A stretch of DNA of 64,000 nucleotides from Azospirillum lipoferum 4B (lineage in GTDB: Bacteria > Pseudomonadota > Alphaproteobacteria > Azospirillales > Azospirillaceae). Positions 33,929 to 64,000 of the stretch are shown here, piece by piece; position 1 is the stretch's first letter; every line of letters begins with the position of its first letter. A program made the position numbers and the translations under genes. Under the pieces are notes generated by a model, which saw nothing but the letters and a program-made list of their open reading frames with translations, was not told where the DNA came from and ran no database searches. The stretch lies in the NCBI RefSeq assembly GCF_000283655.1, contig NC_016623.1, positions 372,001-436,000 of the forward strand, read 5' to 3'.

Positions 33929-33944
33929 TGCGTTGGGGTGCGGT

Positions 33945-34062
33945 GCCCCCTCCCTAACCCTCCCCCACCTTCGGTGGGAGAGGGGACTGCCGCCCTACTG
34001 CAAATCCACCCTCTCCCTCGAAGAGGGGGAGGGAGGGACCCGCGAAGCGGGAGGGAGGGGGC
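33945..34062. repeat. Family-B composite palindromic element, copy 1
   Basis: 118 bp from GCCCCCTCCCTAACCCTCCC to GGGAGGGAGGGGGC, with inner hairpins CCCACCTTCGGTGGG and CCCGCGAAGCGGG. It lies between the convergent XRE-cupin and ABC permease genes, where it may also act as a terminator. Confidence 0.85.
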
Positions 34063-34091
34063 ACACGCACCTCTCCCCCTCACCCACTCCC

Positions 34092-49832: not shown

Positions 49833-49955
49833 GCGGGATGGCCGGGCAGGTCCCTGCCGCATGGATGACGTCCATCGGTTGGTTTGCCGCCCGGCCGGTG
49901 CCGTTGCTATCCTGATCGCCGAATAACGGCGCTTAGGGGCGCTGAGGAGGCAGGC

Positions 49956-50459
49956 GTGGCGGAGCCGGACGGTCTTCAGCTTGGGACGGGTGTGGGCGCC
50001 GCGGTTCTGCGCTTCCTCGACCGCAGCCTCAGCGTCAATGTCGCGACCAGCGACCGGGCGAACCGGCCCCTGGTCGCGCGGGCGGTGGCGGCACGGGCGA
50101 GTTGCGGGGGAGAGCGGCTGACCGTTCTGCTCGACGGGCGGGCCAATGCCGAACTGGTGGCCGCCGTCGCCGACACCGGCCGGCTGGCCGTGGTCTTTTC
50201 CGAACCCAGCACCCACCGCTCCCTGCAGGTCAAGGGCGACGGCGCCGTCGTGACCGCCCCGACGGCGGAAGAGGCGGCGCTCGCCGGCCCCTACCTGGAC
50301 GGCTTCATCGCCGAGCTGACCGGCATCGGCTTCACCGAGCCCTTCATCCGGGCGGTGATGACCTGCGATCCGGTCGATCTGGTGGCGCTGCATGTCCGCC
50401 CGGCCACGGTGTTCGACCAGACGCCGGGCCCGAAGGCCGGCGAGCCGGTGCCGGCATGA
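49956..50459 (+). CDS. Split-barrel (PNPOx-like) protein
   Basis: A 167-residue protein beginning with GTG 49956, preceded by GAGGAGG. It looks like a pyridoxamine-phosphate-oxidase-like FMN split barrel: LDRSLSVNVATSDRANRPLV, GRLAVVFSEPSTHRSLQVKG, then a helical end with TCDPVDLVALHVRP. It is not a true PdxH. The next gene overlaps by 4 bp (ATGA) and has another split-barrel domain, so the two probably form a complex or share a substrate. Confidence 0.7.
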   Translation: MAEPDGLQLGTGVGAAVLRFLDRSLSVNVATSDRANRPLVARAVAARASCGGERLTVLLDGRANAELVAAVADTGRLAVVFSEPSTHRSLQVKGDGAVVTAPTAEEAALAGPYLDGFIAELTGIGFTEPFIRAVMTCDPVDLVALHVRPATVFDQTPGPKAGEPVPA

Positions 50460-51838
50460 GCGACCGGCAAGACCACCATCCCGTGCTGACGCTGGATGCC
50501 ATCCGGACCTGTCTGGAGGGGATGATCCCCGCCACCATCGCCACGGTGGCGCCGGACGGCACGCCCAACGTCTCGCAATTGTCGCAGGTCCATTACGTCG
50601 ACCCCGGCCATATCGCCCTGTCCTATCAGTTCTTCAACAAGACGCGGGCCAACATCCTTGACTGCCGGGACGCCCTTCTGGAGGTCATCGACCCGTCGAC
50701 CGGGGCGCAGTACCGGCTGCGGTTGGACTATCTGCGGACCGAGACCGACGGGCCGCTGTTCGAGAGCATGAAGGCCAAGCTGTCGGGCATCGCCTCTCAT
50801 GTCGGGATGGCGGAGGTGTTCCGGCTGCGCGGCGCCGACCTGTTCCGGGTGACGGAGATCGAGGCGGTGCCCGGCGGCCATCCCCTGCCCGGGCGCATGC
50901 GCCCGCGCAGCCTGCTGTCGGCCGTCCGGCGCGCCTGCGAAGGCTTGCGCGGCTGCGCCGACCTGTCCGACCTGCTCGACCGCGCCATCGTCGCCCTGCG
51001 CGACCTGTTCGGGGTGGAGCATGCGCTGATCCTGCTGCCGGATGCCGCCAGCGGGCGGCTGTTCACCGTCGCCGCCCTCGGCTATGAGGGGAGCGGGCGG
51101 GGCAGCGGCATCGGCTGGGAGGTGGCGCCCGGCGACGGGGTGATCGGCGTGGCGGCGCGCGAACGGGTGCCGATCCGCATCACCCACATGACCACCGACG
51201 TCGCCTATAGCATGGCGATGCGGCAGGGCACGGCGGCGGGGCGGTTGCGCGAGATCCCCTTCCCCGGCCTGGAACAGCCGCACAGCCAACTGGCGGTGCC
51301 GATCCTGGCGCATGAGGCCGGGGACGGCTGCGGCAAGCTGGCCGGGGTGCTTTTCGTGGAGAGCGCGCAGGAGATGCGCTTCACCTACGACGACGAGGAT
51401 GCGCTGGCGACGCTCGCCGCACAGCTGGGCGCGCTGATGCGCAGCCTGCCCGCGGCCCAAGCGACGGAGGGCGAGGATACGCCGGCCGAGACCGCAGCGG
51501 CGCCGGCCGGCGGACAGCCGGTCACCGTGCGCCATTACGCCACCGACGACAGCGTCTTCCTCGACCACGACTATCTGATCAAGGGCGTGGCCGGGGCGAT
51601 CCTGTGGAAGCTGGTGCGCGACCACACGACGCTGGGGCGCACCGACTTCACCAACCGCGAATTGCGGCTGGCGCCGGACATCCCGCTGCCGGATTTCGCC
51701 GAGAATCTGGAAGCGCGGCTGATCCTGCTGCAACGCCGGCTGGACGACCGCCGCGGACCGTTGCGGATCGAGAAGACCGGGCGCGGGCGGTTCCGGCTGC
51801 TGGTGGAGACGCCGCTGCGGCTGGAAGAGATGCAGTGA
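50456..51838 (+). CDS. Split-barrel / GAF fusion protein
   Basis: A 460-residue protein with three parts. The first is an N-terminal PNPOx-like split barrel (about 10-140; MIPATIATVAPDGTPNVSQL and HYVDPGHIALSYQFFNKT). The second is a GAF domain (about 165-320; VEHALILLPDAASGRLFTVA and SQLAVPILAHE). The third is a C-terminal stretch (about 345-460; ILWKLVRDHTTLGRTDFTN, then RFRLLVETPLRLEEM). GAF domains bind small ligands or haem. The combination suggests a redox- or gas-linked sensor with no obvious output enzyme. ATG 50456 overlaps the previous stop, so the two are coupled. Confidence 0.75.
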   Translation: MSDRQDHHPVLTLDAIRTCLEGMIPATIATVAPDGTPNVSQLSQVHYVDPGHIALSYQFFNKTRANILDCRDALLEVIDPSTGAQYRLRLDYLRTETDGPLFESMKAKLSGIASHVGMAEVFRLRGADLFRVTEIEAVPGGHPLPGRMRPRSLLSAVRRACEGLRGCADLSDLLDRAIVALRDLFGVEHALILLPDAASGRLFTVAALGYEGSGRGSGIGWEVAPGDGVIGVAARERVPIRITHMTTDVAYSMAMRQGTAAGRLREIPFPGLEQPHSQLAVPILAHEAGDGCGKLAGVLFVESAQEMRFTYDDEDALATLAAQLGALMRSLPAAQATEGEDTPAETAAAPAGGQPVTVRHYATDDSVFLDHDYLIKGVAGAILWKLVRDHTTLGRTDFTNRELRLAPDIPLPDFAENLEARLILLQRRLDDRRGPLRIEKTGRGRFRLLVETPLRLEEMQ

Positions 51839-51859: not shown

Positions 51860-52843
51860 TTACGGGACAGGTGACACGCCAGCCAGTTCCCGCGCCGGCG
51901 CGGTGGCGAGCGCCGTCTGCAGATAGTCGAGGAAGGCGCGCTCCGCCCGGTTCAGCTTGGCCTGTTCGTTCCAGATCAGGTGGACGTTGACCGGCGCGAT
52001 TCCCTCATAGGGCGGCAGTTCCCACAGCATGCCGTCATCCACGTCGCGGGCGGCGATGTGTTCCGGCAGGGGTCCGATGCCGAGGCCGCAGAGGATCATG
52101 CGGCGCACCTCCTCCAGATTGGCGGAGGACGCGACGACGCGGCCGGCGAAGCCCTCCCGCGCGCGGAACAACGTCAGCGGCGACAGGGCGCCGTCGATCT
52201 GGTCGGAAGTGAAGGAGACGAAATTCTCGTGCCGCAGTTCGGCGATGTCGATGTCGCGCTGCCCGAACAGGCGGAACTCGGAACCGCAATAAAGACGGTA
52301 GGTCTGGCGCAGGAACACCTGACTGGACAATCCGGGAATCGGTTCGCGCAACAGGCAGATCGCCATGGCGCCGACCCGCTGCTGCAAGGCGATATGAGCG
52401 TCGGCCGAGGCCATCACGTCGATGCGGAAGGTCACCTGCGGATACATCCGGTGGAATTCCCGCAGCGAGCGGTCGAGCAGCGGCGTCTGGATGCGGCTGG
52501 TCATCAGGATGTGGACATGACCGCTGATCTCGTCCTTGGCGTCGCGCACCAGGGCGCCCAGGCGGGACACGGTGGCGTGGATCGCCACCGCCTCGTCATA
52601 GACCTGCTCGCCGGCGGCAGTGACGGCGAAGCGGCCGGGACCGCGGTCGATCAGGGTGCGCCCGAGCTGCTCCTCCAGCCGCTTCAGCGCGAGGCTGACC
52701 GCGGGCTGCGTCAAAAACAGGCGGACGGAAGCCTTTGTGATGCTCCCCTCCTGTACGATCACCATGAAGGTGCGCAGCAGGTTCCAGTCCATCTGCTGCC
52801 CAAGACGGGCCAGAGCCTGCCGTTCCGCCTCGGTTTCGTTCAC
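51860..52843 (-). CDS. LysR-family regulator, divergent from the hydrolase cluster
   Basis: A regulator of about 327 residues. The helix-turn-helix (MDWNLLRTFMVIVQEGSITK, then LTQPAVSLALKRLEEQLG) is followed by a LysR substrate-binding domain. The GTG at 52843 has a GGAGAGGGCGGGGG purine run upstream; ATG 52792 is the other option and would begin exactly at the usual family start. It is divergent from the M20 peptidase gene across a 309-bp gap, so it probably controls the long rightward catabolic cluster. Confidence 0.88.
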   Translation of the reverse strand: MNETEAERQALARLGQQMDWNLLRTFMVIVQEGSITKASVRLFLTQPAVSLALKRLEEQLGRTLIDRGPGRFAVTAAGEQVYDEAVAIHATVSRLGALVRDAKDEISGHVHILMTSRIQTPLLDRSLREFHRMYPQVTFRIDVMASADAHIALQQRVGAMAICLLREPIPGLSSQVFLRQTYRLYCGSEFRLFGQRDIDIAELRHENFVSFTSDQIDGALSPLTLFRAREGFAGRVVASSANLEEVRRMILCGLGIGPLPEHIAARDVDDGMLWELPPYEGIAPVNVHLIWNEQAKLNRAERAFLDYLQTALATAPARELAGVSPVP

Positions 52844-53152
52844 TCCCCCGCCCTCTCCATCGGTGCCCGATTCCGGTGCATTCGTTCTGCCGCCCAAATA
52901 CTACGCACATGATTGCCCACTGAGCAACTGCGGCATAAATCAAACTCATGGGCGAAATGAAAAATGCTTATTTGCCACGTCGCATTCGTCATCGCCTAAT
53001 CGACACATGGCGGTCCTCAAACATCGCCAAGCCGGACATGCATAACGTCGCATTATAGCGGTCATATCCATTTGGGATAGGCCGCGCAGCAGCCGCTTTG
53101 TCTTTTTTCAACCGACCGCGCAATCCAGCCGCATCGGCGAAGAGGATTCGGA
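52844..53152. other. Divergent control region of the hydrolase cluster
   Basis: A 309-bp AT-richer gap between the LysR gene and the M20 peptidase gene. It contains a 10-bp direct repeat, ACGTCGCATT, at 52977-52986 and 53045-53054. These could be regulator contacts, but no classic T-N11-A LysR box is certain. Confidence 0.4.
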
Positions 53153-54475
53153 ATGACACGAGAAACGGCAGACCGTCTCGACCATGCGTTGCCGGACCCC
53201 GGCCTGCGCGCCGCCATCCTCGACGCCGCCGATGCGACGCAGGGCGAGTGCGTGGCCCTGCTGTCGGACCTCGTGCGCCAGCCGTCGCTGCTGGGGGAGG
53301 AGGCCGGCGCGCAGGCGCTGATGGCCGACCGCTTCGCCGCGCTCGGGCTGGAGGTCGACCGCTTCGACGTGGACGAGGAGGCGATCTCCCGCATGCCGGG
53401 CTTCTCGCCGCCGGTTCGTCCCGGCGCTTATGCCGGTCGCGAGAATGTCGTCGGCGTCCATAAGCCGCGCGAGGCGAAGGGGCGCTCGCTGATCCTGAAC
53501 GGCCACATCGACGTGGTGCCCGCCGGCCCGGCGGAGCTGTGGACCACCCCGCCCTTCGAGCCCCGCATCGCCGATGGGCGGCTCTATGGCCGCGGGGCCG
53601 GCGACATGAAGGCGGGCATCGCAGCCTATACCTCTGCCTTCGACGCTTTGCGCAAGCTGGGCTACCGCCCGGCCGCGCCCGTCTATCTGCAGTCGGTGAT
53701 CGAGGAGGAGTGTACCGGCAACGGCGCGCTCGCCTGCCTGCATCGCGGCTACCGCGCCGACGCCGCGGTGATCCCGGAGCCGTTCAACCATTCCATCTCC
53801 GTCGCCCAGGTCGGCGTGATGTGGCTGCGGCTGGTGCTGACCGGCACGCCGGCCCATGTGCTCGACACCTCGGCGGGGGTAAACGCCATCGAGGCGGCCT
53901 ATGTGCTGGCGGCGCATCTGAAGGCGCTGGAAGTGCGCTGGAACGAGCCGGCCTGCCGCCATCCGGCCTTCTGTGGCCATGCCCACCCCGTCAACGTCAA
54001 TCTCGGCCGGATCGAGGGCGGCGAGTGGCCGTCGTCAGTCCCGACGCGCTGCGCGCTCGACCTCCGGCTCGGCTTCTTCCCCGGGCAGGAGCCGGAGGCG
54101 GTCCGCGCCGAGGTGACCCGGGCGGTGGAGCTGGCGCGCGCCACCGACCCGGCTCTTGCCAAGGTGGGCGTCGAGTTGCAGTGGAACGGATTCCAGGCCG
54201 CCGGCTGCGAGATCGACCCGGCCCATCCGCTGGTGACAATGCTGGCTGACAGCCATCGCGCCGTGCGCGGCGGCGACCCGGAGCTGGTGGCGCTGACCTG
54301 CACCACCGACGCGCGCTTCTTCCAGCTCTACGGCGACACGCCCGCCACCTGCTACGGCCCGGAGGCGACGCGCATCCACGGCATCGACGAATCGGTGTCG
54401 CTGGACAGCCTGCGCGACGTGACCCGCGTGCTGGCGCTGTTCATCGCCGGCTGGTGCGGCCTGGAACCCATCTGA
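53153..54475 (+). CDS. M20-family metallopeptidase / deacylase (ArgE/DapE-like)
   Basis: A 440-residue zinc amidohydrolase of the ArgE/DapE/ACY1 group. Metal-site motifs are LNGHIDVVPAGPAELW, GRGAGDMKAGIAAY and VIEEECTGNGAL; a dimerisation domain and the final HGIDESVSLDSL follow. AAGAGGA precedes the ATG. It would remove an acyl group from an N-acyl amino acid or cleave a dipeptide. It is first in the rightward cluster and divergent from the LysR gene. The exact substrate is unknown. Confidence 0.9.
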   Translation: MTRETADRLDHALPDPGLRAAILDAADATQGECVALLSDLVRQPSLLGEEAGAQALMADRFAALGLEVDRFDVDEEAISRMPGFSPPVRPGAYAGRENVVGVHKPREAKGRSLILNGHIDVVPAGPAELWTTPPFEPRIADGRLYGRGAGDMKAGIAAYTSAFDALRKLGYRPAAPVYLQSVIEEECTGNGALACLHRGYRADAAVIPEPFNHSISVAQVGVMWLRLVLTGTPAHVLDTSAGVNAIEAAYVLAAHLKALEVRWNEPACRHPAFCGHAHPVNVNLGRIEGGEWPSSVPTRCALDLRLGFFPGQEPEAVRAEVTRAVELARATDPALAKVGVELQWNGFQAAGCEIDPAHPLVTMLADSHRAVRGGDPELVALTCTTDARFFQLYGDTPATCYGPEATRIHGIDESVSLDSLRDVTRVLALFIAGWCGLEPI

Positions 54476-54503
54476 CCCCTTCTTTCCCGACGAGACCCGC
54501 CCG

Positions 54504-55295
54504 ATGATCGCCGCCTCCCTGAAAGCAAACGCCGCCCACGCCCCGCGCGCCACCCGCGACTGCTCCGACGTGGAGTGGAAGGTGCGCACCGATCTGGCCG
54601 CCGCCTACCGGCTGTTCGACCGGCTCGGCATGACCGACCTGATCTACACCCACATGTCGGCGCGGATTCCCGACACTCCCGACCATTTCCTGATCAATCC
54701 CTATGGCCTGATGTTCCACGAGGTGACGCCCGACAACCTCGTGAAGGTCGACATCGACGGCAATCTGGTGGACGGGCGCGAGGGTGACGCCATCAACCCC
54801 GCCGGCTTCACCATCCACAGCGCCGTCCACCACGCCCGTCCCGACGTCGGCGCCGTCATCCACCTGCACACCGACGCGGGCATGGCGGTGAGCGCCCAGG
54901 CCGACGGGCTGCTGCCGATCACCCAGCATTCGCTGCGCTGGTACAACCGCATCGCCTACCACAGCTACGAAGGCATCGCGCTGGACCTGGCGGAGCGGGA
55001 GCGGCTGGTCGCCGATCTCGGCAGCCACCACAGCATGATCCTGCGCAACCATGGCCTGCTGACCGCCGGCCAGGACGTCGCCGAGGCGGCGGTGCTGATG
55101 TACTACCTGGAGCAGGCCTGCAAGCAGCAGATCATGGCGCTGGCCGGCGGCCGTCCGCTGGTCTACCCCTCGCCGGAGGTGTGCGAGCATACGGCCCAGC
55201 AGTACGAGCGCGCCTATCCGCGGGCCGGCGTCCTGGAATGGGACGCGATGCTGCGCTGGCTGGACGGCACGTCTGGACCGGTGGGGCCGCGGTGA
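54504..55295 (+). CDS. Class II aldolase/adducin-family protein
   Basis: A 263-residue class II aldolase-fold protein. Zinc-site motifs are VIHLHTDAGMAVS and LRNHGLLTAG, with the N-terminal GMTDLIYTHMSARI. Related enzymes cleave or epimerise phosphorylated or hydroxy carbon chains; others have no known aldolase role. It is 28 bp after the M20 gene and followed by a family-B repeat before the binding-protein gene. It is probably part of the same pathway. Confidence 0.88.
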   Translation: MIAASLKANAAHAPRATRDCSDVEWKVRTDLAAAYRLFDRLGMTDLIYTHMSARIPDTPDHFLINPYGLMFHEVTPDNLVKVDIDGNLVDGREGDAINPAGFTIHSAVHHARPDVGAVIHLHTDAGMAVSAQADGLLPITQHSLRWYNRIAYHSYEGIALDLAERERLVADLGSHHSMILRNHGLLTAGQDVAEAAVLMYYLEQACKQQIMALAGGRPLVYPSPEVCEHTAQQYERAYPRAGVLEWDAMLRWLDGTSGPVGPR

Positions 55296-55308
55296 GGATA
55301 GTCGTCAT

Positions 55309-55411
55309 GCCCCCTCCCCGACCCTCCCCCGCTTCGCGGGAGAGGGTGCCTTACGCGAAGCGGCGGCTGTCCCCTCCACCGCCAAAGGCGGGGGAGGGTT
55401 AGGGAGGGGGC
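55309..55411. repeat. Family-B composite palindromic element, copy 2
   Basis: 103 bp from GCCCCCTCCCCGACCCTCCC to GGGAGGGTTAGGGAGGGGGC, with the inner hairpin CCCGCTTCGCGGG. It sits between the aldolase stop and the binding-protein start inside the cluster. Confidence 0.88.
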
Positions 55412-55500
55412 AATCGCCAGCCCACAAGCCTCCCAACAAAAAACACCGACACGACAGGGTCGCTGACATCACCGACAACTTCTGGAGACGAGGACACCCG

Positions 55501-57168
55501 ATGACCAGACGCCTTTCCGGTATCCCCGCCAGCTTCCGCCGCAGTTTTCAGGGCGGTTTCACCCGCGGGTTCCACCGCGCCGCCGCAGCAGGCCTGCTCG
55601 CCGCCGTGCTCGCCGTTCCCGGCACCACGGCGCTGGTCGCCGCCCCGGCCATGGCCCAGGAGACGCCGGTCCGCGGCGGTGTCCTCAACTCCATCGTGCA
55701 GCCGGAGCCCCCGACCCTGATGCTGGGGCTGAACCAGCAGGGGCCGACCCAGACGGTCGCCGGCAAGATCTATCAGGGCCTGTTGACCTACGACCAGAAG
55801 CTGAACCCGATGCCGTCGCTGGCCGAGAGCTGGACGGTCTCGCCGGACGGGCTGACCTACACCTTCAAGCTGTTCCAGAACGTCAAGTGGCATGACGGCA
55901 AGCCCTTCACCGCGAAGGACGTCGTGTTCTCGACCTCCAAGTTCCTGATGGAGGTCCACCCGCGTGCCCGTGCCGTCTTCAGCCGCTGCGAGTCGATCAC
56001 CGCGCTGGACGATCACACCGTCGAGTTCAAGCTGAAGGAAGCCTTCCCCGCCTTCATCCAGGCCTTCGAGGTGTCCTCCGCCCCGATGGTGCCGGCCCAT
56101 CTCTATGAGGGGACGGAGTTCCGCGCCAATCCGGCCAACGCCACGCCGATCGGCACCGGTCCCTTCAAGCTGAAGGAATGGGTCAAGGGCAGCTACATCC
56201 AGCTCGTCCGCAACGAAGACTATTACAAGAAGGACCTGCCCTATCTCGACGGCATCACCTTCCGCGTGATCCCGGACGCCGCCAGCCGCTCGCTGGCGCT
56301 GGAGAGCGGACAGGTGCAGCAGACACAGTACAGCGATCTGGAGCCCTTCGAGGTTCCGCGCATGAAGGCGCTGCCCAACCTGACCATGACCACCGCCGGC
56401 TACGAGTTCGTGGCGCCGCTGTCCTGGCTGGAGATCAACCACCGCGTCAAGCCGCTGGACGATAAGCGCTTCCGTAAGGCCATCGCCTACGCCATCGACC
56501 GCAAGTTCATCCGCGACAAGATCTGGTTCGGGCTGGGACGCGTGCCGACCGGTCCGATCAACTCGGTGGTCAAGTTCTACGACCCGAAGGTCACCACCTA
56601 CGAGCCCGATCTCGCCAAGGCCAAGGCGCTGCTGGACGAGATGGGCCTGAAGCCCGACGGCAAGGGCGTGCGCGCCACCGTCAAGATCATGCCGATGCCC
56701 TATGGCGAGACCTGGACCCGCCTGGGCGAGTATCTGAAGCAGTCGCTGTCCAAGGTCGGCATCGCCGTCGTCCTGGAAAGCACCGACGCCGCCGGCTGGA
56801 GCCAGCGCGTCGCCAACTGGGATTACGAGATCACCACCAACTTCGTCTACCAGTACGGCGATCCGGCGCTGGGCGTCGCCCGCACCTACATCTCGTCCAA
56901 CATCCGCAAGGGCGTGATGTTCTCCAACACGATGGGCTATTCCAACCCGAAGGTGGACGAGCTGTTCGCCAAGGCGTCGCAGGAGAACGACCCGGCCAAG
57001 CGCCAGGAGCAGTACAGCGAGGTCCAGCGCATCCTGTCCGACGAGCTGCCGGTCGTCTGGCTGCTGGAGATGGAGTTCCCGACCTTCCTCGACAAGCGGG
57101 TCAGGAACGCCAACAAGACTGCCATCGGGGTGAACGAGACGTACGAAGACGTCTGGCTGGCGAAGTAG
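55501..57168 (+). CDS. Dipeptide-type ABC transporter substrate-binding protein
   Basis: A 555-residue family-5 (SBP_bac_5) periplasmic binding protein. It has a long basic N-terminus and a signal peptide ending in PAMA-QETP. Family motifs include FKLFQNVKWHDGKPFTAKDV, the ATPIGTGPFKLKEWVKGSYI region and RKAIAYAIDRKFI. It captures a peptide, opine or other cationic or amide compound and passes it to the downstream permeases. An ACGAGGAC ribosome site precedes the ATG. Confidence 0.92.
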   Translation: MTRRLSGIPASFRRSFQGGFTRGFHRAAAAGLLAAVLAVPGTTALVAAPAMAQETPVRGGVLNSIVQPEPPTLMLGLNQQGPTQTVAGKIYQGLLTYDQKLNPMPSLAESWTVSPDGLTYTFKLFQNVKWHDGKPFTAKDVVFSTSKFLMEVHPRARAVFSRCESITALDDHTVEFKLKEAFPAFIQAFEVSSAPMVPAHLYEGTEFRANPANATPIGTGPFKLKEWVKGSYIQLVRNEDYYKKDLPYLDGITFRVIPDAASRSLALESGQVQQTQYSDLEPFEVPRMKALPNLTMTTAGYEFVAPLSWLEINHRVKPLDDKRFRKAIAYAIDRKFIRDKIWFGLGRVPTGPINSVVKFYDPKVTTYEPDLAKAKALLDEMGLKPDGKGVRATVKIMPMPYGETWTRLGEYLKQSLSKVGIAVVLESTDAAGWSQRVANWDYEITTNFVYQYGDPALGVARTYISSNIRKGVMFSNTMGYSNPKVDELFAKASQENDPAKRQEQYSEVQRILSDELPVVWLLEMEFPTFLDKRVRNANKTAIGVNETYEDVWLAK

Positions 57169-57189
57169 TCGTCCGATCTCCCCCACTAT

Positions 57190-57214
57190 CCCCTCTCCTC
57201 CCCGGGGAGAGGGG
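57190..57214. repeat. Solo palindrome between binding-protein and permease genes
   Basis: CCCCTCTCC-N7-GGAGAGGGG, a perfect 9-bp inverted repeat related to the family-A end unit, 21 bp after the binding-protein stop. As in other ABC operons, a hairpin here could protect the upstream binding-protein mRNA. Confidence 0.7.
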
Positions 57215-57253
57215 GAGAGGCGAGAGCGCGGCAATTGAAATAGGACCACGCCC

Positions 57254-58234
57254 ATGCTGGGATTCGCCCAAATCTTCGCGAGCCGCCTGGTCAAGGCCGC
57301 TGCGATCCTGATCGCCATCGTGGTGATGAACTTCTTCCTCGTCCATGCCGCCCCCGGCGACCCGGCCATGGTGATGGCGGGCGAAGCCGGGGCCGCCGAC
57401 GAGAAGTTCGTCGCGCAGCTGCGCGAACAGTTCGGGCTCGACCGCCCGATCCTCGAACAGCTCGGCACCTATGTCGGCAAGGTCGTGCAGGGCGATCTCG
57501 GCTTCTCCTACCGGCAGCAGCGGCCCGTCTGGGACATCCTGGCGGAACGGCTGCCGGCCACCCTGGTGCTGACACTGACCGCCTTCCTGCTGGCGCTGGC
57601 CCTGGGCGTGGCGCTCGGCACGCTGGCCGCCGTGACGGTCGGCACCTGGGCCGACAGCGCCATCACCGTCGTGGCGCTGCTGGCCTACGCCACCCCGATC
57701 TACTGGATCGGGCTGATGCTGAGCCTGCTGTTCTCGATCCAGCTGGGATGGCTGCCGGCCTTCGGCTACGAGACGGTCGGGGCCGGCTATACCGGGCTTG
57801 CCCATGTCGCCGACGTGGCCAAGCACCTGATCCTGCCGGTCATCACGCTGGCGCTGTTCTATATGGCGAGCTACGCGCGGCTCACCCGCGCCTCGATGCT
57901 GGAGGTGCGCGGCCTCGATTTCATCAAGACGGCCAAGGCCAAGGGGCTGTCGCAGGGGCGGATCGTCACCCGCCATGTGCTGCGCAACGCCATCCTGCCG
58001 GTCATCACCGTGGCGGGCATCCAGGCCGGGCAGCTGGTCGGCGGCTCCATCCTGATCGAAACCGTGTTCGCCTGGCCCGGCATCGGCCGGCTGGCCTTCG
58101 AGGCGGTGCTGCAGCGCGACTATCAGGTGCTGCTGGGCATCTTCCTGGTCACGTCGATCATGGTGATCCTTTTCAACATCCTGACCGACATCCTCTACGG
58201 CCTCGTCGATCCGCGCATCCAGGTGTCCCAATGA
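57254..58234 (+). CDS. Dipeptide-type ABC permease (DppB-like)
   Basis: A 326-residue inner-membrane permease with six helices. The DppB features are LDRPILEQLGTYVGKVVQGD and the EAA-type loop DFIKTAKAKGLSQGRIV, followed by LIETVFAWPGIGRLAFEAV. Its stop overlaps the next start (ATGATGA), so it is coupled to the second permease. Confidence 0.93.
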   Translation: MLGFAQIFASRLVKAAAILIAIVVMNFFLVHAAPGDPAMVMAGEAGAADEKFVAQLREQFGLDRPILEQLGTYVGKVVQGDLGFSYRQQRPVWDILAERLPATLVLTLTAFLLALALGVALGTLAAVTVGTWADSAITVVALLAYATPIYWIGLMLSLLFSIQLGWLPAFGYETVGAGYTGLAHVADVAKHLILPVITLALFYMASYARLTRASMLEVRGLDFIKTAKAKGLSQGRIVTRHVLRNAILPVITVAGIQAGQLVGGSILIETVFAWPGIGRLAFEAVLQRDYQVLLGIFLVTSIMVILFNILTDILYGLVDPRIQVSQ

Positions 58235-59073
58235 TGAAGTCCGAATTCTGGCGGGCCTTCGCCCGCAACAAGGGCGCGGTCCTGGGCCTCGTCATCCTGG
58301 CGGCCATCGTCGTGCTGGCGGTCTTCGCCTCCATCCTGTTCCCCAACGATCCCTGGGACATGGCGACCGCCCCGTTCCAGCCGCCGCTGTCCGAGGACGC
58401 GCTGCTGGGCTCCGACATGCTGGGACGCGACATCGCCGCCGGCATCGCCCACGGGGCGCGGGTGTCGCTGCTGATCGGCCTGACCTCCACCGCCGCGGCG
58501 CTGGCCATCGGCGTCACGCTGGGGGCGCTGGCCGGCTTCCATGGCGGACGGGTGGACGACGCCATCATGCGCTTCACCGAGCTGTTCCAGACCATCCCCA
58601 ACTTCGTGCTGGCCGTGGTCCTGGTCGCCATCTTTACCCCCAGCCTGACCACCATCGTCGCCGCCATCGCCATCGTCAGCTGGCCGCCGCTCGCACGCCT
58701 CGCCCGCGCCGAGTTCCTCAGCCTGCGCACCCGCGAGTTCGTGCAGGCCGCCATCACCACCGGACAGAGCAACACCACCATCATCCTGCGCCAGATCCTG
58801 CCCAACAGCCTGTCGCCGATCATCGTCTCGGCCTCACTCATGGTGGCGACCGCCATCCTGCTGGAAAGCTCGCTGAGCTTCCTTGGTCTGGGCGATCCGA
58901 ACGCCATGAGCTGGGGCTACATGATCGGCGCCGCCCGCACGGTGATCCGGCAGGCCTGGTGGATGAGCGTCTTCCCCGGCCTCGCCATCGTGCTGACCGT
59001 GCTGGCGTTGAACCTCGTCGGCGAGGGGCTGAACGATGCGCTGAACCCGAAGCTCGCCCGGTCGCGCGGGTGA
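58231..59073 (+). CDS. Dipeptide-type ABC permease (DppC-like)
   Basis: A 280-residue permease with six helices. The N-terminal DppC segment FWRAFARNKGAVLGLVIL is followed by LLGSDMLGRDIAAGIAHGAR, the EAA-type loop EFVQAAITTGQSNTTII and ESSLSFLGLGDPNAMSWG. ATG 58231 overlaps the DppB stop; ATG 58234 is an equal alternative. It forms the heterodimeric channel with the upstream permease. Confidence 0.93.
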   Translation: MMKSEFWRAFARNKGAVLGLVILAAIVVLAVFASILFPNDPWDMATAPFQPPLSEDALLGSDMLGRDIAAGIAHGARVSLLIGLTSTAAALAIGVTLGALAGFHGGRVDDAIMRFTELFQTIPNFVLAVVLVAIFTPSLTTIVAAIAIVSWPPLARLARAEFLSLRTREFVQAAITTGQSNTTIILRQILPNSLSPIIVSASLMVATAILLESSLSFLGLGDPNAMSWGYMIGAARTVIRQAWWMSVFPGLAIVLTVLALNLVGEGLNDALNPKLARSRG

Positions 59074-59077
59074 TCCG

Positions 59078-60772
59078 ATGAGCCTGTCCGAACTGACCCG
59101 CATCCCGACGGAGACCGCCGCCATGACGACCACGCCTCTTCTCGATGTGCGCGGCCTCAGCATCGCGCTGCCGCCGGGCGCCGACCGCCCGCTGGCGGTG
59201 GACAACCTGACCTTCACCTTGAACCCCGACGAGATCCTCTGCGTGGTCGGCGAGTCCGGCTCCGGCAAGTCGATGACCGCGCACGCCATGATGGGCCTGC
59301 TGCCCACCCCGCATGTGCGGGTCGCCGGCGGCAGCCTGCTGTTCAAGGGCAAGGACGTGCTGACCATGCCGGAGGCCGAGCAGCGGAGCTTGCGCGGCGG
59401 CCGCATCGCCATGGTGTTCCAGGAGCCGATGACGGCGCTGAACCCGCTGATGCGGGTCGGCCGCCAGATCGGCGAGAGCTTGCGCGAGCACACCGACCTG
59501 CCCTCCCCCGCCCGCCGCGCCCGCGTGGTTGAGCTGCTGGCCCAGGTCGGCCTGCCCAACCCCGCCGAACTGGCCGAGGCCTATCCCTTCCGCCTGTCGG
59601 GCGGCCAGCGCCAGCGCGTGATGATCGCCATGGCGCTGGCCTGCCAGCCCGACATCCTGATCGCCGACGAGCCGACCACCGCGCTGGACGTCACCACCCA
59701 GAAGCAGATCCTCGACCTGATCCGCTCGATCCAGGCCAAACGCCACATGGGCATGATGTTCATCACCCACGACTTCGGCGTGGTGGCGGAGATCGCCCAT
59801 CGGGTGGCGGTGATGCGCCACGGCAAGCTGGTGGAATACGGCCCGGCGTCCGACGTGCTGAACCGGCCGCAGCATCCCTACACCCGGCAGCTGATCGCCT
59901 CGGTTCCGCACTACATCGAGCACCGCGACGACCATGCCAAGGTCGGCGCGCCGCTGCTGGTCGCCGACAAGGTTCGCAAGGTGTTCAACGTCGGCGGCGG
60001 GCTGTTCAAGAAATCCAAGCAGGTGGTGGCCGGCGACGACCTGTCGCTGACCATCCATCCCGGCGAGACCGTGGGGCTGGTCGGAGAATCGGGATCGGGC
60101 AAATCGACGCTCGGCCGCTCCATCGTCGGCCTCATCAAGCCGGATTCGGGCCGCATCCTGTTCGAGGGCACCGACCTGCTGGCGCTCGACCGCAAGGGCT
60201 TCCAGCCTTACCGCCGGGCGGTGCAGATGGTGTTCCAGGACCCCTACGCCTCGCTGAACCCGCGCCACCGCGTCGGCGACATCGTGGCCCAGGGGCCGGT
60301 CGCCTTCGGCGAGGACCGCAACAAGGCGCTGACCCGCGCGCGGGAGTTGCTGGCGATGGTGGGGCTGGATGGGTCGGCCGCCGACCGCTACCCGCACGAG
60401 TTCTCCGGCGGCCAGCGCCAGCGAATCGGCATCGCCCGCGCGCTCGCCATGGAGCCGAAGCTGCTGGTGGCGGACGAGCCGGTGTCGGCGCTCGACGTAT
60501 CGGTGCAGGGGCAGGTGCTGGAACTGCTGGACGACATCCGCAAGCGGCTGAACCTCGCCATGCTGTTCATCACCCACGATCTGCGGGTGGCGGCGCAGGT
60601 CTGCGACACCATCGCGGTGATGCGCCGCGGACGGATCGTCGAGCTGGGCACGGCGCGGCAGGTGTTCACTCATCCGCGCGACGCCTACACCCGCAGCCTG
60701 CTCGACGCCATCCCCGGCAAGGGCTGGCACATCCCGGACGACCTTCAGCAAGTCCCGGCGGGAGCGCACTGA
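59078..60772 (+). CDS. Fused double ABC ATPase (DppD-DppF type)
   Basis: A 564-residue protein with two complete ATPase modules in one chain. Walker A GESGSGKS occurs at 58-65 and again near 350. The signatures are [15 protein letters not shown] and [15 protein letters not shown], with Walker [11 protein letters not shown] and [10 protein letters not shown]. Each module ends in the oligopeptide-transporter C-terminal region ([12 protein letters not shown] and [13 protein letters not shown]). It replaces the separate DppD and DppF subunits. The start could be 59078 or ATG 59123. It powers the importer of this cluster. Confidence 0.93.
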
Positions 60773-61768
60773 ATGAAGGTCGCCATCATCGGGGCCGGGG
60801 CGGTCGGCGGGCTGCTGACAGCGCGGCTGGGCGCCACGGAGGCGGAGGTGACGCTGGTCGCCCGGCCGAACGCCGCAACCGCCATCCGCCGCAACGGCCT
60901 GACCATGGTGACGCCGTTGAACCGCGTCGCCCGGCTCACCCCCCGCGTCACCGACGACAGCCTGTCGCTGGGGCCGCAGGATTTGGTGTTCCTCTGCGTC
61001 AAGGCCCATGCACTGCGCGGCACCATCGACACGCTGACCCCGCTGCTGGGGCCGGAGACCGCAATCGTGCCGATGATCAACGGCATTCCCTGGTGGTATC
61101 CGCACCGCCAGCCGGAGCCGTTGGCTGACCGGCCGCTCGCCAGCGTCGATCCCGACGGGCTGCTTTGGCGCTCCATCGATCCCGACCGGGTGGTCGGCGC
61201 GACGACCTTCGTCGCGGTTGAGGGCGACGGCCCCTGCCGCCTGCGCCATGTCAGCGACCAGCGCTTCGTTTTCGGTGATGCCGGGGGCGACGCTGCCGGC
61301 CGCGACAACCCGGCGGTGGACCGCATCGTCACCCTGTTCGGGCAGGCCGGGTTCCAGCCGGCGAAGACCACCGATATCCGGCAGGCGATCTGGGTGAAGC
61401 TGTGGGGCAACCTCGCCTTCAACCCGTTGAGCGTGCTGACCGGATCGACGCTGGGCCGGCTGTGCAACGATCCCGGCACGCGGGAGACCGGCCGCGCCAT
61501 GATGCTGGAGGCCAAGGCGGTGGCGGAGCGGCTGGGCGTGGTCTTCACCACCAGCGTGGACGAACGCATCGCCATGGCCGCCGGCGTCGGCGACTTCAAG
61601 ACGTCGATGCTGCAGGACTATGAGGCCGGCCGCCGGCTGGAGCTGGAGGCGATCCTGGGATCGGTGATCGAACTGGCGGAGCGCTGCGGCATGGAGGTGC
61701 CGATGCTGCGCGCGGTGTCGGCGATGGTCGACCTCAGGGCGCGGGAGCGGCGGGAGGTGGTGGCTTAG
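60773..61768 (+). CDS. Ketopantoate-reductase-like (ApbA/PanE family) oxidoreductase
   Basis: A 331-residue NADP-dependent 2-oxoacid reductase-like protein. It has an N-terminal GAGAVGG (7-13), VKAHAL, a catalytic-lysine region QAIWVKLWGNLAFNPLSVL, and a C-terminal helical domain with TSMLQDYEAGRRLELEAI. The start immediately follows the ATPase stop, so it is co-translated. In this setting it probably acts on a catabolic intermediate rather than in pantothenate synthesis; inference only. Confidence 0.9.
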   Translation: MKVAIIGAGAVGGLLTARLGATEAEVTLVARPNAATAIRRNGLTMVTPLNRVARLTPRVTDDSLSLGPQDLVFLCVKAHALRGTIDTLTPLLGPETAIVPMINGIPWWYPHRQPEPLADRPLASVDPDGLLWRSIDPDRVVGATTFVAVEGDGPCRLRHVSDQRFVFGDAGGDAAGRDNPAVDRIVTLFGQAGFQPAKTTDIRQAIWVKLWGNLAFNPLSVLTGSTLGRLCNDPGTRETGRAMMLEAKAVAERLGVVFTTSVDERIAMAAGVGDFKTSMLQDYEAGRRLELEAILGSVIELAERCGMEVPMLRAVSAMVDLRARERREVVA

Positions 61769-61788
61769 ATACCGCAACCAAGGCCCAC

Positions 61789-61818
61789 TCAACCATTGCC
61801 CCCTCAACCATTGCCCCC
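61789..61818. repeat. 15-bp tandem duplication at a repeat boundary
   Basis: TCAACCATTGCCCCC occurs twice in tandem. The second copy runs into the left end of family-B copy 3, which suggests slippage or an insertion-related duplication at the element edge. Confidence 0.75.
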
Positions 61819-61934
61819 TCCCCATCCCTCCCCCGCTTCGCGGGAGAGGGGGCAGGACGCTTGTCGATGTGAGCTATTCGCGAAGCGGCGGAGTTCCCTC
61901 TCCCGCAAGAGCGGGGGAGGGTTAGGGAGGGGGC
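61813..61934. repeat. Family-B composite palindromic element, copy 3
   Basis: 122 bp from GCCCCCTCCCCATCCCTCCC to GGGAGGGTTAGGGAGGGGGC, with inner hairpins CCCGCTTCGCGGG and TTCGCGAA. It lies between the ketopantoate-reductase-like gene and the amidohydrolase gene. Confidence 0.88.
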
Positions 61935-61984
61935 AACCGCAACTCCCACCCCCAAGAATCCAACAAACCCCACCCGGAGCCACC

Positions 61985-63226
61985 ATGCCCCTCCCCTCCA
62001 ACCTGCCCATCGACGCCGACCGTCTGTGGGACAGCCTTGCCGAGATGGCGAAGATCGGCGCCACCGCGAAAGGCGGCAGCTGCCGCCTTGCACTGTCGGA
62101 CGAGGACAAGGCCGGCCGCGACCTGTTCGTCTCCTGGTGCGAGGCCGCCGGCTGTACCGTGACCGTCGACCGCATCGGCAACATCTTCGCCCGCCGCAGG
62201 GGCCGCGACGACAGCCTGGCCCCGGTGGTGATGGGCAGCCATCTCGACACCCAGCCGACCGGCGGACGGTTCGACGGCGTGTTCGGCGTGCTGGCGGCGC
62301 TGGAGGTGGTGCGCTCGCTGAACGACCGTGGGGTGGAAACCCTGCACCCGGTCGAGGTCGCGGTTTGGACCAACGAGGAGGGATCGCGCTTCTCGCCGCC
62401 GATGATGGGATCGGGCGTGGTCACCGGAATCTTCACGCTGGAGGAGATCCTCGACAAGGTGGCGCAGGACGGAGCCCGGCTCGGCGACGAACTGGTCCGC
62501 ACCGGCTATGCCGGCGAGGCTTCCGTCGATCACCCCATGCACGCCTATCTGGAGGCCCACATCGAACAGGGTCCGGTGCTGGAGGTCGAGGGCAAGGAGA
62601 TCGGCGTCGTCACCGGCGCGCAGGGCCAGCGCTGGTACGAGGTGACGGTGACGGGGGTGGAGGCGCATGCCGGCCCGACGCCGATGCGCCTGCGCCGCGA
62701 CGCGCTGGTCGCCGCCTCGGCCATGGTGCAGGCGGTGCAGCGGGTCGGGCTGGAGACGGCGGGCGACCCGTGCGCCACCGTCGGCATCCTCGACGTCCAC
62801 CCGCATTCGCGCAACGTCATCCCCGGCCGGGTCTTCTTCACCGTCGACCTGCGCCACCCGAACGCCGACACTCTGGCCGACATGGACCGCCGCTTCCGTG
62901 CCGCCGTCGCCGAAATCGCCGAGCAGCAGGGGGTGAGCGCCGAGATCGCCGATTTCTGGCACTTCCCGCCGACGCCCTTCGCCGAGCCGCTGGTCGACCG
63001 GGTGCGCGAAGCGGCGAGCGGCTTCGGCTTCAGCCACCGCGACATCGTGTCGGGCGCCGGCCATGACGCGGTGTATGTGGCGGGCAAGGTGCCGACGGCG
63101 ATGATCTTCATCCCCTGCGAGGACGGCATCAGCCACAACGAGGTCGAGAACATCTCCCCCGCCGACGGCGCCCGCGGTGCCGCCGTGCTGTTCGAAACGC
63201 TGGTCGCCACGGCCGGCCGGCCGTAA
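61985..63226 (+). CDS. Zn-dependent hydrolase, N-carbamoylase/allantoate-amidohydrolase family
   Basis: A 413-residue M20-type amidohydrolase. Metal-site motifs are MGSHLDTQPTGGRFDGVFG and WTNEEGSRFSPPMMGSG, and the lid/dimer region has HIEQGPVLE. The C-terminal zinc His lies in DGISHNEVENIS. Relatives hydrolyse N-carbamoyl amino acids, ureidoglycolate, allantoate or beta-ureidopropionate. ATG 61985 is the first after the repeat; the frame to 61796 crosses the repeat and is not coding. Confidence 0.9.
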   Translation: MPLPSNLPIDADRLWDSLAEMAKIGATAKGGSCRLALSDEDKAGRDLFVSWCEAAGCTVTVDRIGNIFARRRGRDDSLAPVVMGSHLDTQPTGGRFDGVFGVLAALEVVRSLNDRGVETLHPVEVAVWTNEEGSRFSPPMMGSGVVTGIFTLEEILDKVAQDGARLGDELVRTGYAGEASVDHPMHAYLEAHIEQGPVLEVEGKEIGVVTGAQGQRWYEVTVTGVEAHAGPTPMRLRRDALVAASAMVQAVQRVGLETAGDPCATVGILDVHPHSRNVIPGRVFFTVDLRHPNADTLADMDRRFRAAVAEIAEQQGVSAEIADFWHFPPTPFAEPLVDRVREAASGFGFSHRDIVSGAGHDAVYVAGKVPTAMIFIPCEDGISHNEVENISPADGARGAAVLFETLVATAGRP

Positions 63227-63243
63227 CGGCGCAAGTTGCAATT

Positions 63244-63353
63244 GCCCCCTCCCTAACCCTCCCCCTCTTCGAGGGAGAGGGGACTGGCGCTTCCTGTCCC
63301 TCCACCGCCGAAGGCGGGGGAGGGAGGGACCCGCGAAGCGGGAGGGAGGGGGC
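63244..63353. repeat. Family-B composite palindromic element, copy 4
   Basis: 110 bp from GCCCCCTCCCTAACCCTCCC to GGGAGGGAGGGGGC, closest to copy 1 at both ends, between the amidohydrolase stop and the deacetylase-family start. Confidence 0.88.
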
Positions 63354-63381
63354 ACCACCTCAGCACGCCCCGGAGTCCCCC

Positions 63382-64000
63382 ATGAAGTTCGTCCATCACC
63401 CCGACGCCGCCCTGCACCGCCCCGCCACCTACTTCAACAAGGGCCTGCTGCGCGCCCTGCCGGAGAAGCCGGAGCGGGTCGGTGCGCTGGCCTCGCTGAT
63501 CGAGAAGCGCGGCGAGACGCTGATCCGTCCCGACGATTACGGCTCCGCCCCGCGCGCCGCAGTCCACACCCCCGCCTATCTAGCCTTCCTGGAGACCGCC
63601 CATGCGCGCTGGGTGGCGAAGGGCGACATGGGCGACGTGGTGCTGCCCAACGTCCACCGGATGCAGGCCGCCCCCAGCTATCCCACCTGCATCGTCGGGC
63701 AGGCCGGCTGGCACATGTTCGACACCGCCTGCCCCATCGGCGCGGAGACCTGGACCGCCACCTGCGCCGCGACCAACGCCGCCATCCATGCGGCGCGGCT
63801 GGTCGCCACCGGGGCGGACCGTGCGGCCTATGCGCTGTGCCGGCCGCCGGGGCATCATGCCACCCGCGATATGGCCGGCGGCTTCTGCTACCTCAACCAT
63901 GTCGCGGTCGCGGCGGAGTCGGTGCTGCCGATCCTGCGAGCCCAGGGCCGGGCGGCGCGGGTGGCGATCATCGATGTGGACGTCCATCACGGCAACGGCA
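63382..64000 (+). CDS. Histone deacetylase / acetylpolyamine amidohydrolase family protein (partial)
   Basis: The first 206 residues of a gene cut by the window edge. It starts MKFVHHPDAALHRPATYFNK, as bacterial acetylpolyamine amidohydrolases do. The arginase/deacetylase-fold motifs are intact: RPPGHHATRDMAGGFCYLN (catalytic His pair) and IIDVDVHHGNG (zinc Asp and His). It would remove an acetyl or other acyl group from an amine. As part of the cluster it may act on the same imported compound as the carbamoylase-type and M20 enzymes. Confidence 0.9.
   Translation, partial: MKFVHHPDAALHRPATYFNKGLLRALPEKPERVGALASLIEKRGETLIRPDDYGSAPRAAVHTPAYLAFLETAHARWVAKGDMGDVVLPNVHRMQAAPSYPTCIVGQAGWHMFDTACPIGAETWTATCAATNAAIHAARLVATGADRAAYALCRPPGHHATRDMAGGFCYLNHVAVAAESVLPILRAQGRAARVAIIDVDVHHGNG

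Follow-up and report, generated by a model that had tools for sequence, protein, structure and literature searches.

A conserved block of importer, amide-hydrolase and dehydrogenase genes in Azospirillum lipoferum 4B: a candidate catabolic operon for a small N-acylated compound

Background

What is the substrate of an operon that combines a peptide-type importer with several amide hydrolases, a dehydrogenase and an aldolase-like enzyme? This question is raised by the right-hand end of a stretch of 64,000 nucleotides of Azospirillum lipoferum 4B (contig NC_016623.1, positions 372,001 to 436,000; this whole stretch is called the window below), where one rightward block of genes begins at 53,153 and ends, cut off, in a gene for an amidohydrolase of the histone deacetylase (HDAC) family. 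On balance we lean towards reading this block as an operon that is controlled by LysR and serves to take up and degrade a small N-acylated (amide) compound, the reactions, their order and the substrate class being suggested by the gene families and their neighbourhoods. The usual interpretation of bacterial HDAC-family enzymes is that they deacetylate polyamines or proteins; in the setting that recurs here, the HDAC gene is linked with genes for an importer, a 2-hydroxyacid dehydrogenase and an enzyme that probably cleaves C-C bonds. Named Alpha- and Betaproteobacteria show this setting, and Pseudomonas has it with a different importer.

Gene content, linkage, a shared upstream motif and the presence of unrelated families of like predicted chemistry in like clusters can be read from the DNA itself. 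Our verdict is that the block represents a real and conserved catabolic cassette, which is made of ordinary parts and whose combination could be matched to no named pathway in the open-access literature searched.

Results and discussion

Gene content of the block

An original prediction, made from the letters of the window alone, had listed the genes of the block, and gene calls together with Pfam and NCBIfam matches bore out this list and its order. The block encodes an M20 deacylase, a class II aldolase/adducin-family enzyme (ALD2 in the following), a solute-binding protein, two permeases, an ATPase of the ATP-binding cassette (ABC) type, a ketopantoate-reductase-like dehydrogenase (PanE), a carbamoylase-family amidohydrolase and the HDAC-family enzyme (Table 1). 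The ATPase, which had been taken for a fusion of DppD and DppF, is indeed a single protein. A divergent LysR gene had also been announced; it is present on the minus strand, although at 51860-52897 it falls outside the interval that the prediction had assigned to the cluster. Three hydrolases of different folds had been expected as well, but one pair of Pfam domains is shared by the M20 deacylase and the carbamoylase, so that the block holds two amide-hydrolase folds and not three.

The part of the HDAC gene inside the window encodes 206 amino acids; its full-length relative in the nearest genome compared (G001, L009:13223-14275) has 350, and in relatives the block extends one gene further, to an EamA/DMT transporter. 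From 51860 to 63999 the window is 94-95% identical to G001 at the DNA level. The M20 deacylase, the carbamoylase and the binding protein are 93.4%, 96.4% and 93.0% identical to their counterparts on a plasmid of A. ramasamyi, and 91.8%, 94.9% and 89.5% identical to those on a plasmid of Azospirillum sp. B510.

Most of the parts resemble known systems. With the Dpp/Opp-type importers that have fused ATPases (GsiA and YejF types) the importer shares an SBP_bac_5 protein, two BPD permeases and a protein with two ABC_tran stretches, but it stays below the equivalog cut-offs of DppA, GsiB, DppB, DppC, YejF and GsiA (138 of 1005 bits for DppA, 267 of 590 for DppB and 228 of 483 for DppC). NCBIfam matches of the ATPase to nickel and staphylopine models were rejected as evidence on the substrate, because several ATPase models pass their cut-offs together. 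The carbamoylase belongs with the HyuC/beta-ureidopropionase/AllC family, reaching 431 bits against TIGR01879 (cut-off 204) in addition to its match to NF006769, but is below the AllC and ErtE equivalog cut-offs. No hydantoinase or dihydropyrimidinase was found among the ten window proteins scanned; two carbamoylase relatives elsewhere do adjoin one. PanE has both ApbA domains above cut-off, from which the activity of a ketopantoate reductase is predicted. The gene set as a whole is not described in the open-access papers among the matches listed, several queries having matched more papers than listed, and within these bounds the earlier statement that no named pathway fits the set stands.

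Conservation in Azospirillum and related genera

The HDAC gene is found at 59% identity or more in 42 of 45 Azospirillum genomes (by row count), and 30 neighbourhoods from these 42 genomes, chosen by the HDAC gene, were examined. M20 deacylase, importer and HDAC occur together in 26 of them, 17 times in exactly the gene order of the window, so that the conserved order by which the original prediction proposed to judge the cluster is borne out for Azospirillum. In seven neighbourhoods a second order is seen, in which ALD2 is gone and a thiamine pyrophosphate (TPP) enzyme and a BKACE protein follow the HDAC; one further neighbourhood lacks the carbamoylase, and one of the second order stops at a contig end. 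A relative of the LysR gene was labelled in 29 of the 30. Three neighbourhoods (L126, L127 and L128) keep LysR and HDAC alone of the set, face to face, which may reflect either loss of the other genes or an ancestral pair, and in one the HDAC stands without the rest of the set. Skermanella loci begin with ALD2 or with the binding protein, and some are without the carbamoylase.

Loci chosen by the binding protein

So that loci would not be selected by the HDAC gene, a second collection was anchored on the binding protein. Searches of 385 and 398 genomes matched 24 and 25 of them, and 52 loci from outside the Azospirillaceae were analysed. Neighbouring genes were labelled by their similarity to 23 reference families of our choice, to which the GlcD type was later added as the 24th; a score of at least 80 bits was required, and a minimum identity (40%) for HDAC alone.

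Labelled in this way, the 52 loci contain HDAC 19 times, ALD2 12 times, M20 8 times, a GntR regulator 18 times and a class III aminotransferase (label AT3b) 9 times. All 12 loci with ALD2, which come from 7 genera, also carry HDAC and a PF02826-type 2-hydroxyacid dehydrogenase; HDAC is thus present in 12/12 loci with ALD2 versus 7/40 without it (Fisher p 2.4e-7, relatedness ignored). Likewise, a PanE, PF02826 or GlcD-type gene accompanies the HDAC in 15 of 19 loci, versus 7 of the 33 loci that have no HDAC.

Loci around another dipeptide-type binding protein served as a control. This protein was matched in 33 of 240 genomes, and 40 of its 76 places were used, all from Alphaproteobacteria, several per genome and picked mostly for contig room. 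None of the 40 control loci held HDAC, ALD2 or such a dehydrogenase at 40% identity or more; an M20 gene was seen in one, a carbamoylase in two, an amidase in one and a cupin in one. The locus L011 had been rejected as control anchor, as it resembles a YejABEF-type system (named by eye). According to the binding-protein loci and the control, the association of the genes is more than chance.

A shared upstream motif

Between the LysR gene and the M20 gene lies an imperfect palindrome, CATAAATCAAACTCATG, which resembles a LysR box, T-N11-A being the form of such boxes. The alignment of 27 intergenic stretches (L124 was excluded for its length) shows a pattern of this type at the same aligned place in 23 and anywhere in 24; at that place the stretches L111, L112 and L126 deviate by a few letters, and that of L136 starts downstream of the motif. 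In 7.3 million strand-bases of compared sequence the pattern occurs 69 times, the aligned copies included. A further conserved block, AATGAAAAATGCTTATTTGC, stands out in the same alignment and may be another LysR half-site or the promoter region.

Across lineages the motif precedes four kinds of first gene, namely M20, HDAC, ALD2 and the binding protein, and it is present in L127 and L128, where LysR and HDAC stand alone. Because the lineages differ in the gene that follows LysR yet share the motif, the simplest reading is that the genes of the block form one regulon, with LysR predicted to bind the motif. The original prediction had held that the genes belong together, which this shared motif and the linkage in 26 of 30 Azospirillum neighbourhoods support, and it had named control of the first gene only by LysR as an observation that would count against it; the same motif before different first genes speaks against such restricted control, provided that LysR does bind there. 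The candidate operator could be used in a reporter.

Exchange of enzymes between loci

Unrelated enzymes of like predicted chemistry replace one another in these loci. The dehydrogenase is PanE in the Azospirillaceae, a GlcD-type FAD enzyme in some other loci, and a PF02826 D-2-hydroxyacid dehydrogenase in Nitratireductor, Methylobacterium, Achromobacter, a Comamonadaceae record and further loci. The gene that follows the ATPase was compared in 58 loci: it is PanE in 6, PF02826 in 13, M20 in 5, HDAC in 3, a gene of another label in 4, and in the other 27 no gene with a label lies within 300 bases; in 5 of these 27 a GlcD-type gene comes next (one gap being about 0.4 kb). The GlcD type came from an unsupervised clustering of unlabelled neighbours, of which this cluster alone was used, as the clustering also gave many frames that resemble reverse-strand artefacts, and some unrelated families. 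In Nitratireductor the dehydrogenase is next but one after the ATPase, with M20 between.

A similar exchange concerns the probable C-C cleaving enzyme. Among 100 loci, a set that includes the window and strains present both as plasmids and as genomes and whose counts are therefore not independent, 39 hold ALD2, 11 the TPP enzyme, none both and 50 neither; the HDAC is present in 10 of the 11 loci with the TPP enzyme. This enzyme scores above the cut-off of an 'acetolactate synthase large subunit' model; its match to a benzoylformate decarboxylase model stays below the threshold. The A. brasilense-type loci resemble BKACE-containing breakdown clusters in that a BKACE protein follows HDAC and TPP enzyme, but BKACE is absent from the window's lineage.

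The importer can be exchanged too. Two Pseudomonas loci (L081 and L109, the only ones in which the symporters were identified) hold ALD2, dehydrogenase and HDAC, with genes of the MFS symporter family in place of the ABC importer; such a gene stands before ALD2 and the dehydrogenase in both, and in L081 also before carbamoylase and HDAC, and in L109 an OprD porin gene adjoins. The symporters score below the cut-offs of TIGR00883 (386-410 of 443 bits) and of a shikimate model (317-360 of 538), and 'carboxylate-type' would be a guess at their specificity. Taken as a pattern, these replacements suggest a 2-hydroxy or 2-oxo acid as the shared intermediate and a substrate that is small and perhaps carboxylated.

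The HDAC-family enzyme and acetylated polyamines

Acetylated polyamines are the substrates that the name of the enzyme family brings to mind, and acylated polyamines had been among the candidates of the original prediction. Residues 5-345 of the full-length HDAC relative in G001 align to 3men, with RPPGHH, DVDVHHG and EGGY kept, so that the catalytic His-His pair, the Asp and His that bind the metal and the EGGY tyrosine are present, and its nearest solved chains (3men, 9gkz, 6phr and 3q9b) all bear the name of acetylpolyamine amino- or amidohydrolases. From the near-full-length similarity to the acetylpolyamine amidohydrolases, with RPPGHH and EGGY retained, the enzyme would belong in cluster 4 of Graf et al. 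2024 (PMC11532494).

The window-type enzyme differs from these amidohydrolases at two points and in its place in an operon of import and acid breakdown. Glu106 of the M. ramosa enzyme is reported to bind the polyamine amine, and a PIS motif is also named as a polyamine feature (PMC11532494); in the full-length relative these are changed to Val105 and PLA. An alignment of ten HDACs from the clusters shows 9 without the Glu and 9 without PIS, the two being retained in different sequences. These changes disfavour acetylated polyamines but are not decisive, as an ApaH of Pseudomonas sp. that has His at 106 is described there as still active on acetylpolyamines (PMC11532494). Utilisation of acetylpolyamines, with the importer taking them up and the HDAC acting as acetylpolyamine amidohydrolase, would also agree with the names of the solved chains and with class III aminotransferases or gabT in some related loci, but ALD2 and the dehydrogenase would seem to have no evident place in polyamine breakdown, and we consider this explanation quite unlikely.

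The Pseudomonas sp. ApaH-type enzyme is further reported to deacetylate lysine in peptides and in one protein (PMC11532494), which would allow the HDAC to act as a protein deacylase, controlling the importer or the remaining enzymes, and to be no catabolic step itself. HDAC genes of this kind, however, are also found beside different importers and different catabolic genes, and in three Azospirillum loci LysR and HDAC are the only genes of the set; such a regulatory role appears highly improbable.

A proposed pathway

In the catabolic reading that we prefer, the binding protein and the importer with the fused ATPase would bring in a small N-acyl compound. The HDAC-family enzyme would then cut its amide bond, with M20 deacylase and carbamoylase as assisting or alternative enzymes, and so release an amine and a 2-hydroxy (or 2-oxo) acid. 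Interconversion of 2-hydroxy and 2-oxo acid would fall to the PanE-like enzyme, perhaps with the flow towards oxidation, after which ALD2, or the TPP enzyme in the A. brasilense-type loci, would split a C-C bond of the 2-oxo acid. The EamA protein may export a product or an excess. In other loci the amine part may go to a class III aminotransferase, or to a pair of a kinase and a phospholyase-like enzyme. The original prediction had seen all three hydrolases as directed at one complex molecule; this is not supported by the clusters compared, as carbamoylase, M20 and ALD2 are each absent from some similar ones.

Which compound this might be can be narrowed to a chemical class that could be screened. 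One doubtful but specific possibility is an as yet undescribed pathway of modular build that degrades N-(2-hydroxyacyl) amides, pantoyl or lactoyl amides for example: the HDAC-fold enzyme would open the amide, the (R)-2-hydroxyacid would be oxidised and a C-C bond be cleaved, each step being filled by unrelated families: PanE, D-2-hydroxyacid dehydrogenase or GlcD for the oxidation, ALD2 or the TPP enzyme for the cleavage, M20 and carbamoylase or an amidase beside the HDAC, and an ABC importer or a symporter for uptake. Pantothenate-like and N-lactoyl-like amides are our leading guesses at the substrate, each of low probability. A lactoyl amide is chemically possible because bacterial de-lactylases are reported among these enzymes (PMC11532494).

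Were pantothenate itself the substrate, the amide of pantoyl-beta-alanine (or of a pantoyl amine) would be hydrolysed, PanE would oxidise D-pantoate to ketopantoate, and ALD2 would perform the cleavage. PanE is by family a ketopantoate reductase, the carbamoylase resembles the N-carbamoyl-beta-alanine amidohydrolase 8c46 and has relatives in reductive pyrimidine clusters, and AT3b occurs in 9 of the 52 loci. The known breakdown of pantothenate, however, runs via aldopantoate and dimethylmalate and not via cleavage of ketopantoate, and the modules of APH kinase and phospholyase-like enzyme in some loci would be left without a place. A 2023 paper (PMC10393543) calls the pantothenase protein unidentified. 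A pantothenate-type substrate is in our view distinctly improbable.

Observations that weigh against a dedicated pathway

Several observations count against the proposed operon function. No HDAC is found in 33 of the 52 binding-protein loci (several of them on short contigs), which implies that importers of this clade also carry other cargo and are not confined to the pathway, and one locus with the TPP enzyme, L178, is without HDAC as well. In a Mantel test on 29 loci, chosen for holding both genes and with relatedness ignored, the distances of HDAC and binding protein show a moderate correlation only (r 0.43), compared with r 0.91 for those of binding protein and ALD2. Nor does the position behind the ATPase always hold the same kind of gene: a dehydrogenase often stands there, but not in every locus. 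ALD2, furthermore, is assigned by PF00596, a broad fold family from which aldol chemistry need not follow, and among its solved relatives are adducin and NovR, which is a decarboxylase.

To these can be added the loci chosen by the HDAC itself. Among the best 80 named loci of at least 589 confirmed relatives from an HDAC alignment search, this importer clade is present in only 5 and ALD2 in only 4, indicating that several pathways make use of this type of HDAC; most of these HDACs would serve other functions, and the present pathway would be a minority. All 4 loci with ALD2 also hold the PF02826 dehydrogenase. BKACE occurs in 23 of the 80, mostly with a class III aminotransferase and an ABC importer of another type. 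As a separate observation, the loci L031-L080, mostly from Rhodobacteraceae and Rhizobiales, show a recurrent setting of LysR, a different ABC importer, class III aminotransferase, BKACE and HDAC, which is probably a separate pathway.

Such a distribution, together with the modular make-up, in which carbamoylase, M20, ALD2, cupin and EamA are each present in some loci and missing from others, might also be expected of a loose scavenging island whose enzymes serve different amides and acids and are grouped by shared use in a habitat. We consider this unlikely in view of the company of HDAC and 2-hydroxyacid dehydrogenase that ALD2 keeps in 12 of 12 binding-protein loci, the mutual exclusion of ALD2 and TPP enzyme, and the single upstream motif.

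Feature coordinates and neighbouring elements

Table 1. Genes, regulatory candidates and repeats in and next to the block (positions in the window).
Feature	Start	End	Strand	Remarks
LysR-type regulator	51860	52897	-	HTH_1 and LysR_substrate; coordinates of the longest open reading frame, start predicted; divergent from the operon
LysR-box-like imperfect palindrome CATAAATCAAACTCATG	52934	52950		contains T-N11-A; predicted LysR binding
Second conserved block AATGAAAAATGCTTATTTGC	52956	52975		from the alignment of 27 intergenic stretches; predicted role
M20 ArgE/DapE-family deacylase	53153	54475	+	PF01546 and PF07687; NF005306 542 bits (cut-off 376); closest solved chain 3pfo
Class II aldolase/adducin-family enzyme (ALD2)	54504	55295	+	PF00596; NF005451 348 bits (cut-off 207); closest solved chain 3ocr
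MITE-like repeat, ALD2-SBP gap	55308	55416		not part of the pathway
SBP_bac_5 solute-binding protein (SBP)	55501	57168	+	PF00496
Permease, DppB type	57254	58234	+	BPD_transp_1
Permease, DppC type	58234	59073	+	BPD_transp_1 and OppC_N
Fused ABC ATPase	59078	60772	+	PF00005 (ABC_tran) in two stretches
Ketopantoate-reductase-like (PanE/ApbA) dehydrogenase	60773	61768	+	PF02558 and PF08546; NF005089 357 bits (cut-off 223); residues 2-326 aligned to 3ghy
MITE-like repeat, PanE-carbamoylase gap	61810	61939
Hydantoinase/carbamoylase-family amidohydrolase	61985	63226	+	PF01546 and PF07687; NF006769 641 bits (cut-off 452); closest solved chains 5thw, 5i4m
MITE-like repeat, carbamoylase-HDAC gap	63242	63354
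HDAC-family (ApaH-like) amidohydrolase	63382	64000	+	PF00850 (Hist_deacetyl); gene cut by the window end

Three gaps of the operon contain a palindromic repeat of 109-130 bp with inverted ends TTGCCCCCTCCC or close to it, which is found once more in the window outside the operon (33944-34063). The third copy has at least 46 matches in G001 and at least 42 in G006, some of them partial or overlapping (40 candidate places were scored per genome). The positions of the repeat within the operon vary between strains, G001 having one more copy that separates the binding-protein gene from the permease gene, and it looks like a miniature inverted-repeat transposable element (MITE) or an element of the repetitive extragenic palindromic (REP) type that has spread in Azospirillum.

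Two overlapping frames lie between a transglycosylase gene and LysR (49884-51838), one with a GAF domain and the other without a Pfam match; both hold stretches that by eye resemble flavin oxidases, and for A. ramasamyi no gene is listed at this place. A gene close to the A. argentinense cluster (L013:1-183) is annotated as a member of the ribulose-bisphosphate carboxylase large subunit family; genes for VOC and TRAP transporter proteins accompany it. The BKACE of that species (L013:6081-7025) reaches 562 bits against a cut-off of 430 with a 3,5-dioxohexanoate:acetyl-CoA acetone transferase model.

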